From a virus, in the IMG/VR virus record IMGVR_UViG_3300048538_000024, positions 1 to 36,964 of that record: a stretch of DNA of 36,964 nucleotides. The stretch is one strand, 5' to 3'. Below the pieces are notes generated by a model, which searched no databases, was not told the DNA's origin, and saw only the letters and a list, made by a program, of their open reading frames with translations. This document shows, in pieces, positions 18,883 through 22,550 of the stretch. The position numbers were made by a program, and so were the translations under genes. Numbering within the stretch: position 1 is the stretch's first letter; every line of letters starts with the position of its first letter.

Positions 18883-19092
18883 TTATTCAAATGACATCCA
18901 ATATTCTTTAATGCGTTTGCCATTTTCAAGCTTTATAAACTGGCTATCAATAACCACGCCTTGCTCTTTCAAATCTAAAATACGGCGCGGCAATGACCAG
19001 CAACCAAACTTATCTAAAGCCACCATACCTGTGATTGAATTGCCAGCCTCTAAGTAGCCTTTGATCGCCTTTGTTTGACTTTCCATATCCAT
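18883..19092 (-). CDS. Winged helix-turn-helix protein (HTH_39-like)
   Basis: 69 residues. The pattern TKAIKGYLEAGNSITGMVALDKFGCWSLPRRILDLKEQGVVI is the short helix-turn-helix domain found in many phage replication regions, followed by a wing (FIKLENGKRIKEYWMS). The ATG overlaps the preceding stop (TAATG) and has AGGAG upstream. It probably binds DNA. Target unknown. Confidence 0.75.
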   Translation of the reverse strand: MDMESQTKAIKGYLEAGNSITGMVALDKFGCWSLPRRILDLKEQGVVIDSQFIKLENGKRIKEYWMSFE

Positions 19093-19493
19093 TATAAACT
19101 CTCCTTTAAGAGTGGGTCATATCCGATTGCATCTGACAGCTTTTCCATAGCTGCCTCAAAGTATTTCATAAAATCTTGCTGGCTCATCTGGTCAAACGAA
19201 ATGCTGTTTGGAATACGCATAAATTCTTCAGCCATTTCATTGTATTTCATTGAGTAATAACCACACGCAAATTTTAGTTCATCGTGCAGATGTTTTTCCG
19301 TGGGCCATTTGCCAGTGTCTTTGCATACGTTGCGCAGCGCCGCCCAATAGAGATTGTGATGCGGGTTGGATCTCTTTCCGGTAGATGTCAGGTTAAAAAC
19401 TTGACCATCAGCAAAATCTTCCATGCGCTGGGCATCGTATTGGGAAACGGGCAATAGCTGACTGTTTTTCAATTGCATTTGCAGCTTTGTCAT
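19092..19493 (-). CDS. DUF1367-like or NinB-like recombination-region protein
   Basis: 133 residues. The middle (GKRSNPHHNLYWAALRNVCKDTGKWPTEKHLHDELKFACGYY) resembles the DUF1367 layout, in which a G-x-RS(N)-H--YWA-L segment leads to a helical C-terminus. The family sits in recombination cassettes of many phages and its function is not settled. It lies between the annealing/SSB genes and the HTH and HNH genes. The start shares ATGA with a 21-codon frame upstream. Confidence 0.6.
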   Translation of the reverse strand: MTKLQMQLKNSQLLPVSQYDAQRMEDFADGQVFNLTSTGKRSNPHHNLYWAALRNVCKDTGKWPTEKHLHDELKFACGYYSMKYNEMAEEFMRIPNSISFDQMSQQDFMKYFEAAMEKLSDAIGYDPLLKESL

Positions 19494-19864: not shown

Positions 19865-20221
19865 TTAAAACGGAATTTGATCATCGTGAATATTATTAGA
19901 TTGCGGCGCTTGATGTTCAGTGTGCCTTACCGGCTCCACAGATCGCCCACCAAACAGCTTAACCTCTGATGGCCTGACACCTAAGAAGGTCTTGCCGTTG
20001 TACTCACGGGTCTTTAAATCGCCTGTCACAGCCACTTGCGTACCTTTGGTTAAATACTGCGCTACCTGTGTGCGGTTGTAAGATACATCAAAAAACATCA
20101 CGCCTTTGTTTTCTCCCCATCCATCATCAACTGCGACAGAAAAGGTGACAAATCCCCCTTTGTCGTTCTGACGAACCTCACTGTCTTTGGTGAGACGCCC
20201 AACGATAGTAATTGCTTTCAT
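19865..20221 (-). CDS. ssb: Single-stranded DNA-binding protein
   Basis: 118 residues. An OB-fold runs from residue 1 to about 90: MKAITIVGRLTKDSEVRQ, FVTFSVAVDDGW, MFFDVSYNRTQVAQYLTKGTQVAVTGDL and NGKTFLGVRPSEVKL. A short disordered linker leads to the acidic tip DDQIPF, which in bacterial SSBs recruits replication and repair partners. The ATG overlaps the stop of the annealing protein gene (ATGA), so the two are probably made in step. It coats ssDNA during replication and annealing. Confidence 0.92.
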   Translation of the reverse strand: MKAITIVGRLTKDSEVRQNDKGGFVTFSVAVDDGWGENKGVMFFDVSYNRTQVAQYLTKGTQVAVTGDLKTREYNGKTFLGVRPSEVKLFGGRSVEPVRHTEHQAPQSNNIHDDQIPF

Positions 20222-21381: not shown

Positions 21382-22062
21382 ATGTCAAATCACACTTTCA
21401 ATCCAGCAATTGCTTGCGCTGTAGGCGTCAACGCTGCTGTCATTTATCAGAACATTTTATTCTGGACAGAGAAGAATGCAGCAAACAATCGTCATAAGCA
21501 TGAGGGCGCTTACTGGACATATAACAGCATCTCAGCGTTTGAGCAGTTGTTCCCATATCTATCGGCAAAGCAGATTAGAACAGCACTGGCTGCGCTTGAG
21601 AATGCCGGTCTTATTATCTCTGGTTCGTTCAATAAATCAGGTTACGATAGGACTAAGTGGTACTGCCCCACAGGGCAAGTCGACTTGCCCCACAGGGCAA
21701 ATGGATTGGCCCCAGAGGGCGAACCTATACCAGATAATAAACCAGTTAATAAACAAAGTAATAATATTAGAGATATTTTATCTACTTGGTTGATGGATGA
21801 AGAAGCTGCTGACAGTTTCATTGCATATCGCAAATCTATCAAGAAACCGCTCACAGCAACGGCTGCTAAAAGATTGTCTGAGAAATTAAGGTGGATCTTC
21901 GTCGGTGGTGGTGAGCCATCTGATGCCTTGGCTATGTGCGAAGAGAAAGGGTGGCAGAGCATAGAGGTTGAATGGTTCTTCAAATCACTTCATGGTGAGA
22001 AATCTGATAGCTACAAAAAAGCTATGACAAATATTGAGCAAGCAAGACGGGAGACAGTATAA
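21382..22062 (+). CDS. Replication initiator / replisome organiser (lambda O-like role)
   Basis: 226 residues. The N-terminal domain (1-93) is FNPAIACAVGVNAAVIYQNI, then EGAYWTYNSISAFEQLFPYL and SAKQIRTALAALENAGLIIS. It is the winged helix typical of phage replication proteins that bind origin iterons. A low-complexity linker (95-127) is encoded by the iterons and AT-rich tract. The C-terminal domain (SFIAYRKSIKKPLTATAAKRL, DALAMCEEKGWQSIEVEWFF) resembles DnaD/replisome-organiser tails that bind the host helicase loader or helicase. It is likely to start replication on host machinery. The next gene overlaps by one base. Confidence 0.8.
   Translation: MSNHTFNPAIACAVGVNAAVIYQNILFWTEKNAANNRHKHEGAYWTYNSISAFEQLFPYLSAKQIRTALAALENAGLIISGSFNKSGYDRTKWYCPTGQVDLPHRANGLAPEGEPIPDNKPVNKQSNNIRDILSTWLMDEEAADSFIAYRKSIKKPLTATAAKRLSEKLRWIFVGGGEPSDALAMCEEKGWQSIEVEWFFKSLHGEKSDSYKKAMTNIEQARRETV
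21664..21723. repeat. Three iterons, 22-bp period, inside the replication gene
   Basis: Copies start at 21665, 21687 and 21709. The first two read TGCCCCACAGGGCAA with no mismatch, and copy 2 is the palindrome TTGCCC-CACA-GGGCAA. The third is GCCCCAGAGGGCGA. The 22-bp period is two helical turns. Since 22 is not a multiple of three, each copy is read in a different frame, so conservation acts on DNA rather than on protein. Confidence 0.85.
21664..21780. other. Candidate origin of replication (iterons plus AT-rich tract)
   Basis: The iterons are followed by 50 bases (21731-21780) with only nine G or C. This is the iteron-then-unwinding-element order of the lambda origin, also inside the initiator gene. 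The strong GC-to-AT change is local and lies in the interdomain linker. Function is inferred from layout. Confidence 0.7.
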
Positions 22063-22550
22063 TGGATTATGGTCAAAGAGTAGAAATGATTAAGCGGCAT
22101 CTCGCAGCAATGTTAAGCAGCTATGCCATCCCTAGCCATTTACGCAGTAGCGAGACAGCGCAGCAGGATGAGATTGATGTAACGGCTAAAGCTCTAAACC
22201 AGCTTTTCCCAAACGAGACTACGCCAGATCACCTATCAGGTACGTTTGAACGCGCAGCGCTAAAGATTAAGGCTGCTCACACTTCCCGCTCATGGCCTAA
22301 AGCTTCTGACATAGCGGCGGCCATTAAGAGTTGCTTTGATAAAGCCAGTGGCCGTGACGTTGCCTCTGGGCCTTGGAAGCCCGACACTTACAAGATCAAT
22401 GCTGATAGAATTAAACGCGGCGAGCCTGTCGGTGATAATTGGGTCAATGGTAAGATGGGCGAAGCACTGGTAGAGCGAGGGCTTGTGACCGATCAGGATC
22501 TACTGCCGTACCGCGAGGCAATAGGTTTTGCAAAACGCTTTGAGGCGTGA
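22062..22550 (+). CDS. Replication-associated protein, unknown
   Basis: 162 residues, starting in a one-base overlap with the initiator. It is helical (RVEMIKRHLAAMLSSYAIPSHL, ETAQQDEIDVTAKALNQLF) with a later WPKASDIAAAIKSCFDKASG and NWVNGKMGEALVERGLVTDQDL. Genes in this position often encode helicase-loading partners, but no P-loop or known motif is visible, so the role is open. It is the last gene before the terminator at 22592. Confidence 0.55.
   Translation: MDYGQRVEMIKRHLAAMLSSYAIPSHLRSSETAQQDEIDVTAKALNQLFPNETTPDHLSGTFERAALKIKAAHTSRSWPKASDIAAAIKSCFDKASGRDVASGPWKPDTYKINADRIKRGEPVGDNWVNGKMGEALVERGLVTDQDLLPYREAIGFAKRFEA

Follow-up and report, generated by a model that had tools for sequence, protein, structure and literature searches.

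The replication initiator gene of a marine phage very likely contains the replication origin of that phage within its own coding sequence, in the form of three palindromic iterons that would be bound by the winged-helix domain of the encoded protein, leading to melting of the adjacent duplex and recruitment of a helicase loader. We analyzed a virus record of 36,964 bases (referred to below, at its full length, as the window), in which the iterons lie in the part of the gene that encodes the linker of the initiator, with a start-to-start spacing of 22 and 22 bp. We infer melting, helicase recruitment, and origin function at the array from this layout and from characterized relatives, and binding from covariation. 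To our knowledge, most tailed phages have no mapped origin.

An iteron array lies in the linker of a two-domain initiator

The gene (21,382–22,062, plus strand) encodes a protein of 226 amino acids with an N-terminal winged helix, a linker, and a helical C-terminal domain. In a profile search, this protein matched PHROG 11233, replication initiation protein (E = 3.8e-34), as well as PHROG 678 (O-like) and PHROG 6493 (DnaD-like), and PHROGs 428, 11233, and 6493 were matched by 68 of 68 homologs. AlphaFold2 modeling gave a mean pLDDT of 90.4 for the 226-amino acid initiator and a pLDDT of 93.1 with a pTM of 0.82 for residues 1–96. Based on the model and on fold matches, residues 1–94 (21,382–21,663, plus strand) constitute the winged-helix domain, which is the putative iteron-binding domain. 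The helix spanning residues 62–74 (21,565–21,603, plus strand) is its recognition helix and has at its start both K63 (21,568–21,570, plus strand) and R66 (21,577–21,579, plus strand), the two positions whose variation goes with that of the half-sites (see below). The model helices from residue 129 form the C-terminal domain (residues ~129–226; 21,766–22,059, plus strand), which would recruit the replisome. As the sequence-only reading of this DNA had proposed, the tract falls between the two domains: the array encodes linker residues ~94–114, where AlphaFold2 confidence drops.

The array begins after the codons for W93 and Y94, and each unit of 18 bp consists of a 7-bp arm, a 4-bp center, and a 7-bp arm. 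Iteron 1 (21,662–21,679) has the half-sites ACTGCCC and CTTGCCC around the center CACA, iteron 2 (21,684–21,701) has CTTGCCC and TTTGCCC around CACA, and iteron 3 (21,706–21,723) has TTGGCCC and TTCGCCC around CAGA; the cores read GCCC-CACA-GGGC twice and GCCC-CAGA-GGGC once, in agreement with the earlier description of three near-identical GCCC-CA-GGGC copies 22 bp apart. Two adjacent copies together also give an 18-nt near-palindrome. With these arms and centers at a 22-bp period, there is one half-site per 11 bp in alternating orientation, which would bring all half-sites to roughly the same face of the helix. The motif GCCC-N4-GGGC was found 4 times in the window, compared with 0.33 expected, and 0 of 100 shuffles reached four; no second such array is present elsewhere in the window. 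The peptides encoded by copies 1–3 (CPTGQ, LPHRA, and APEGE) differ, as had been claimed, i.e. the reading frame rotates from copy to copy, and the three-iteron score of the window stood out from synonymous-codon shuffles in which the protein was kept (p = 0.001).

The boundary between the array and the following AT-rich stretch is marked by the conserved junction CCTATACC (21,724–21,731, plus strand), which was the basis of a scan for its extended form. The AT-rich stretch (21,726–21,785) contains 12-bp repeats at 21,726 and 21,738 and is a probable DNA unwinding element: among all 60-bp stretches of the record, the one that starts at 21,726 is lowest in stability (rank 1 of 36,904). The 50-base AT-rich tract described in the sequence-only reading is present at 21,726–21,775, but its GC content is 20% and not 18%.

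The next gene (22,062–22,550, plus strand; 162 amino acids) has a start codon that overlaps the rep stop codon (TAATG) and is, by its position, a candidate replication partner; it had no Pfam or PHROG match that would identify it as a P-type helicase loader or a member of another family. Genes for SSB (19,865–20,221) and for a NinB/Orf-type recombination mediator (19,092–19,493), both on the minus strand, lie next to the rep region. A minimum of cumulative GC skew near 21.7 kb had been suggested as a check. The cumulative skew has a local minimum near 21 kb, at the place where gene orientation changes from minus to plus (~21.0 kb). This minimum is hence not independent evidence for an origin, and we rejected cumulative GC skew for this purpose because it is confounded with gene orientation.

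Selection on the array at the DNA level is supported by homologs from several phyla

We compared 132 distinct homologs (<85% identity, with the junction in its common codon phase) from phages and prophages of hosts in several bacterial phyla. The array exceeded synonymous shuffles in its three-iteron chain score at p ≤ 0.05 in 118 of the 132 homologs and at p ≤ 0.01 in 101 of them, and about one-tenth had no significant array in this test. This score was adopted because an earlier palindrome-pair score, with p ≤ 0.05 at 16 of 58 loci, was too coarse per locus. When the linkers of 58 homologs with <80% identity in the N-terminal domain were examined for repeats at different lags, the mean best repeat score had its maxima at lags of 22 and 44 (z = 22.9 and 12.1, respectively), and no comparable lag-22/44 peak was seen in the N- and C-terminal coding regions that flank the linker in the same homologs. 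Iterons therefore persist in the linker across phyla while the protein there varies, the outcome that the sequence-only reading had anticipated. Together, the shuffle controls and the comparison of homologs support selection on the DNA of the array beyond the needs of the encoded peptide and, with it, the core claim of that reading, namely that the linker-coding part of the initiator gene holds an origin with iterons that is under selection as DNA.

The association of array and initiator family was also seen in DNA searches. When 2.9 million viral contigs were searched, using DNA only, for the iteron pair GCCC-N4-GGGC-N10-GCCC-N4-GGGC, 102 stretches were returned, of which 57 are located in the linker of the initiator family, 1–170 bp (median 45) past the N-terminal domain, and most of the remaining matches resemble GC-rich chance hits. 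The scan for the extended junction CCWATACCAGATATAAACMCAGAT returned 76 stretches, all 76 in the same frame of rep-like open frames, with a detectable N-terminal domain in 74. Homologs L212 and L247, and also Staphylococcus phage P954, retain the junction in another codon phase. The stretch that follows the junction in homologs has a mean AT fraction of 0.73 and a best period of 12 bp in 107 of 124; because these AT-rich 12-mers are in frame, this part alone cannot separate selection on DNA from selection on protein. Across the family, the frequency of A at the four center positions is 0.64, 0.79, 0.79, and 0.60, and AAAA is the commonest center, from which the window differs (CACA, CACA, and CAGA). 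For the homolog collection, the scan used a closer alignment of 10 sequences, as an alignment of 21 sequences was without enough conserved stretches. Genome searches added few further homologs, and a blastn search found no similar DNA in annotated phages. In the linkers of close relatives of the window (L007–L017), the adjoining half-sites 1R and 2L are both shifted toward TGACC, and most other half-sites are still GCCC, which represents an intermediate state. The linker of a distant homolog on Nostoc sphaeroides plasmid p1 contains several direct copies of GTGCCAAAAATGGAT, an array of another type.

Two residues of the recognition helix covary with the half-sites

Covariation was analyzed in 124 homologs, with the junction as the fixed reference for the half-site register, across 94 alignment columns and with overall identity regressed out. 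Residue identity correlated with half-site similarity at K63 (r = 0.578) and R66 (r = 0.555), compared with 0.177 for the next column, Q64, and a maximum of 0.273 in 300 permutations. Residue 66 tracks bases 3 and 4 (0.435 and 0.694), and residue 63 tracks bases 5, 6, and 7 (0.564, 0.457, and 0.367). Specifically, R or K at position 66 is found with G4 in 88 of 89 cases, G, Y, or A with T4 in 10 of 11, and D or E with A or C in 10 of 10; at position 63, K is found with C5 in 55 of 62 and with C6 in 62 of 62, D, H, or N with G5 in 17 of 17, R with A5 in 12 of 17, and S with A7 in 17 of 17. Columns 63 and 66 still ranked highest without the loci selected through GCCC (0.49 and 0.47; next, 0.12) and did so again when the last iteron was analyzed alone.

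To account for shared ancestry, path-disjoint pairs were counted on a tree built without the recognition helix (~85 columns, few well-supported branches). Supported branches gave only 2–5 pairs among the tests listed, hardly any of them contrary, which is too few for significance, and we therefore used all branches of the best tree, a weaker procedure. Pairs in the expected versus the opposite direction then numbered 13:0 for R/K66 with G4, 21:2 for K63 with C5, 28:1 for K63 with C7, and 11:0 for D/H/N63 with G5; among the control pairings on the same tree, R/K66 with C5 was not significant, and K63 with G4 gave p = 0.02. The closest natural contrast is provided by L019 and L021, which are 89% identical outside the helix and carry SQIR with TTTGCGA and KQIR with TTTGCCC, respectively.

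We also considered held-out loci, which lie outside the residue table and whose arrays were located without the junction. In the group with Q, K, or R at position 64, mostly of the KQIR type, base 4 was correct in 29 of 32 and base 5 in 29 of 33, and at the loci of this group without K63, base 5 was correct in 6 of 9; some held-out loci (e.g. L110, L455, and L456) were placed in the wrong register by junction-free array finding. By eye, the residues at 63 and 66 fit the half-sites in L472 (D and R, TTTGGGA), L473 (D and R, TTTGGCG), L454 (R and R, TTTGACA), L479 from a cyanobacterial plasmid (N and R, TTTGGCA), and L469 and L470 (D and G, TTTTGCA), and L456 is a misfit (H and R, TTGGCCA, wrong at base 5). 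A subfamily with T64 from Bacilli (L055, L475, L476, L477, and L482) keeps linker repeats, but their geometry differs, so the two-residue table is not directly transferable to it.

Because the letters of the sites covary with residues of the encoded N-terminal domain, this domain is indicated as the binder, and we conclude that it very probably binds the iterons of its own gene. The sequence comparisons further suggest that two initiator residues largely predict the letters of the site, which is new relative to known systems: no prior account of the in-gene arrays of this family or of such a residue code was found in the openly accessible literature.

Layout and fold appear closer to RepA_N initiators than to lambda O

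The best long fold matches of the N-terminal domain in a Foldseek search were the RepA_N structures 4pql (probability 1.00), 4pta, 4pt7, and 5kbj; RepA_N matches had probabilities of 0.89–1.00 and TM scores by query of 0.56–0.61, but E values of 0.03–0.5, and other winged helices also match. The Pfam RepA_N profile (PF06970) had no match in the window protein or in 68 homologs, and searches of solved structures by sequence, using the protein and three alignments, returned nothing meaningful, including among the solved RepA_N chains. RepA_N plasmid initiators (pSK41 and pTZ2162) and the RepA of Vibrio PLE likewise have a winged-helix N terminus and a variable C terminus. In pSK41, four Rep boxes are central in the rep gene, and the protein can dispense with the linker encoded by them (PMC5703833); RepA_N iterons have been described as semi-palindromes that converge on a poly-A tract (PMC7145576). 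In-gene semi-palindromic iterons are thus shared, and the A-rich center is seen in most homologs, although the window has CACA and CAGA. The strict 22-bp spacing and the CCWATACC junction are marks of the phage family itself.

Modular exchange of specificity has been described in related settings. In the pPR9 type, a phage-like N-terminal domain (pfam13730 HTH) sits on a pSK41 C terminus, by which specificity is swapped and a compatible replicon obtained (PMC5703833). This concerns one staphylococcal plasmid, and specificity is not described at the level of residues in that report; the corresponding profile, HTH_36 (PF13730), gave a weak match in only 2 of 21 homologs. In the ICP1 Odn/PLE system, the N-terminal initiator domain and the iterons covary and swap as a module, with an origin-directed nuclease as the selective force (PMC8263062). 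It differs from the family described here in that the iterons of PLE RepA are in a noncoding region outside the gene and whole domains covary rather than two residues.

The sequence-only reading had called the origin lambda-like. In ori-lambda, four palindromic iterons with A-rich centers lie inside O, between the DNA-binding N terminus and the C terminus, and are followed by an AT-rich stretch; the lambda iterons break the reading frame too. The layout of in-gene iterons and then an AT-rich stretch is therefore common to the window and the lambda O type, and this part of the comparison holds. In contrast, lambda has spacings of 20, 24, and 23 bp rather than 22 bp and half-sites of the form ATCCCTC, no homology to lambda O was detected for the window protein by blastp or for the N-terminal profile, and the closest solved fold match is the RepA_N domain. 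Layout and fold appear to resemble the RepA_N plasmid initiators more than lambda O; the putative origin would work like those of both groups, and we assign it to neither.

Alternative roles of the repeats

The iterons could be real binding sites of the winged helix and nevertheless act as an operator, for autoregulation or copy control of rep and the downstream genes, rather than as an origin. The N-terminal domain does resemble winged-helix transcription regulators (weak PadR-type matches and many regulators among the structural matches), and a protein bound within a transcribed gene could block transcription. We consider this role improbable, given that the array is ~280 bp inside the gene, not at a promoter, and is the sole one of its kind in the window, that it lies next to the 60 bp with the lowest stability in the record and homologs retain the neighboring AT-rich 12-mers, and that pSK41 Rep, the best-studied relative by fold, has an origin made of Rep boxes inside the rep gene (PMC5703833). 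Less probable still is that a hairpin acts as RNA or single-stranded DNA, e.g. in translation control or primosome assembly, instead of the duplex sites. Each copy is an inverted repeat, neighboring copies form the 18-nt near-palindrome, and some homologs preserve the arms through G-U-type changes (L038). Many homologs, however, have poorly matching arms, yet each half-site fits the consensus of that phage, and the pairing of half-site letters with residues of the recognition helix has the chemistry of duplex readout, i.e. R/K with G and D/E with A or C.

That the repeat arose as a side effect of protein evolution, from a linker peptide with internal repeats and without function as DNA, has next to no probability in our assessment. 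The adjoining AT-rich 12-mers are in frame (PDNKPVNK; PDINTDINTD in homologs) and are possibly kept as peptide repeats, but the 22-bp period breaks the frame so that every copy encodes a different peptide. For the 22-bp array, this explanation is refuted by the lag-22 periodicity, the covariation with the two recognition-helix residues, and the result with synonymous shuffles (118 of 132 homologs); the refutation does not cover the 12-mer stretch.

A candidate initiator and origin cassette

Taking the array as an origin, we propose that the N-terminal winged-helix domain would bind the three iterons, probably as one dimer per 18-bp palindrome, with R66 setting bases 3 and 4 of the half-site and K63 setting bases 5–7 to give half-sites of the TTTGCCC type around a short, usually A-rich center. 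Binding of the array beside the AT-rich 12-mers would open that duplex, and the C-terminal domain would recruit the helicase loader. The array-encoded linker would be flexible and tolerant of many peptides, which is what allows selection on DNA to act there.

The C termini found behind the same N terminus and array vary and include DnaD-type, TIGR02220, DnaT-like, and lambda O-type domains; in Vibrio phage 1.247.A, the N terminus of the family and its linker array are fused to a lambda O C terminus (49% identity over 83 amino acids). Another isolated phage with a member of the family is Pseudoalteromonas phage vB_PspP-H6/1. We give about even chances to the broader view that initiator and origin form a portable cassette, present in several phyla and with many C termini, whose specificity comes mainly from residues 63 and 66 and whose origin has repeatedly been retargeted, perhaps in escape from co-infecting phages, satellites, or origin-directed nucleases. 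In phages of several phyla, sequence allows the origin to be predicted, and two residues give most of its specificity. The natural variants make origin choice, incompatibility in co-infection, hijacking by satellites, and origin-directed defense (cf. ICP1 Odn; PMC8263062) testable, and they are a natural data set on how winged helices read DNA.

N-terminal domains also occur alone, without a C-terminal domain (L052, 1183–1473; L057, 1474–1815; L056, 1501–1920; and L481, 974–1303). Such copies are present in Lactobacillus phages phiLdb and Ld25A, phage C75C1, and Butyrivibrio virus Ceridwen, mostly with no array following, and are possibly regulators or split initiators. In phiLdb, a stand-alone copy lies ahead of the full gene and has another recognition helix.
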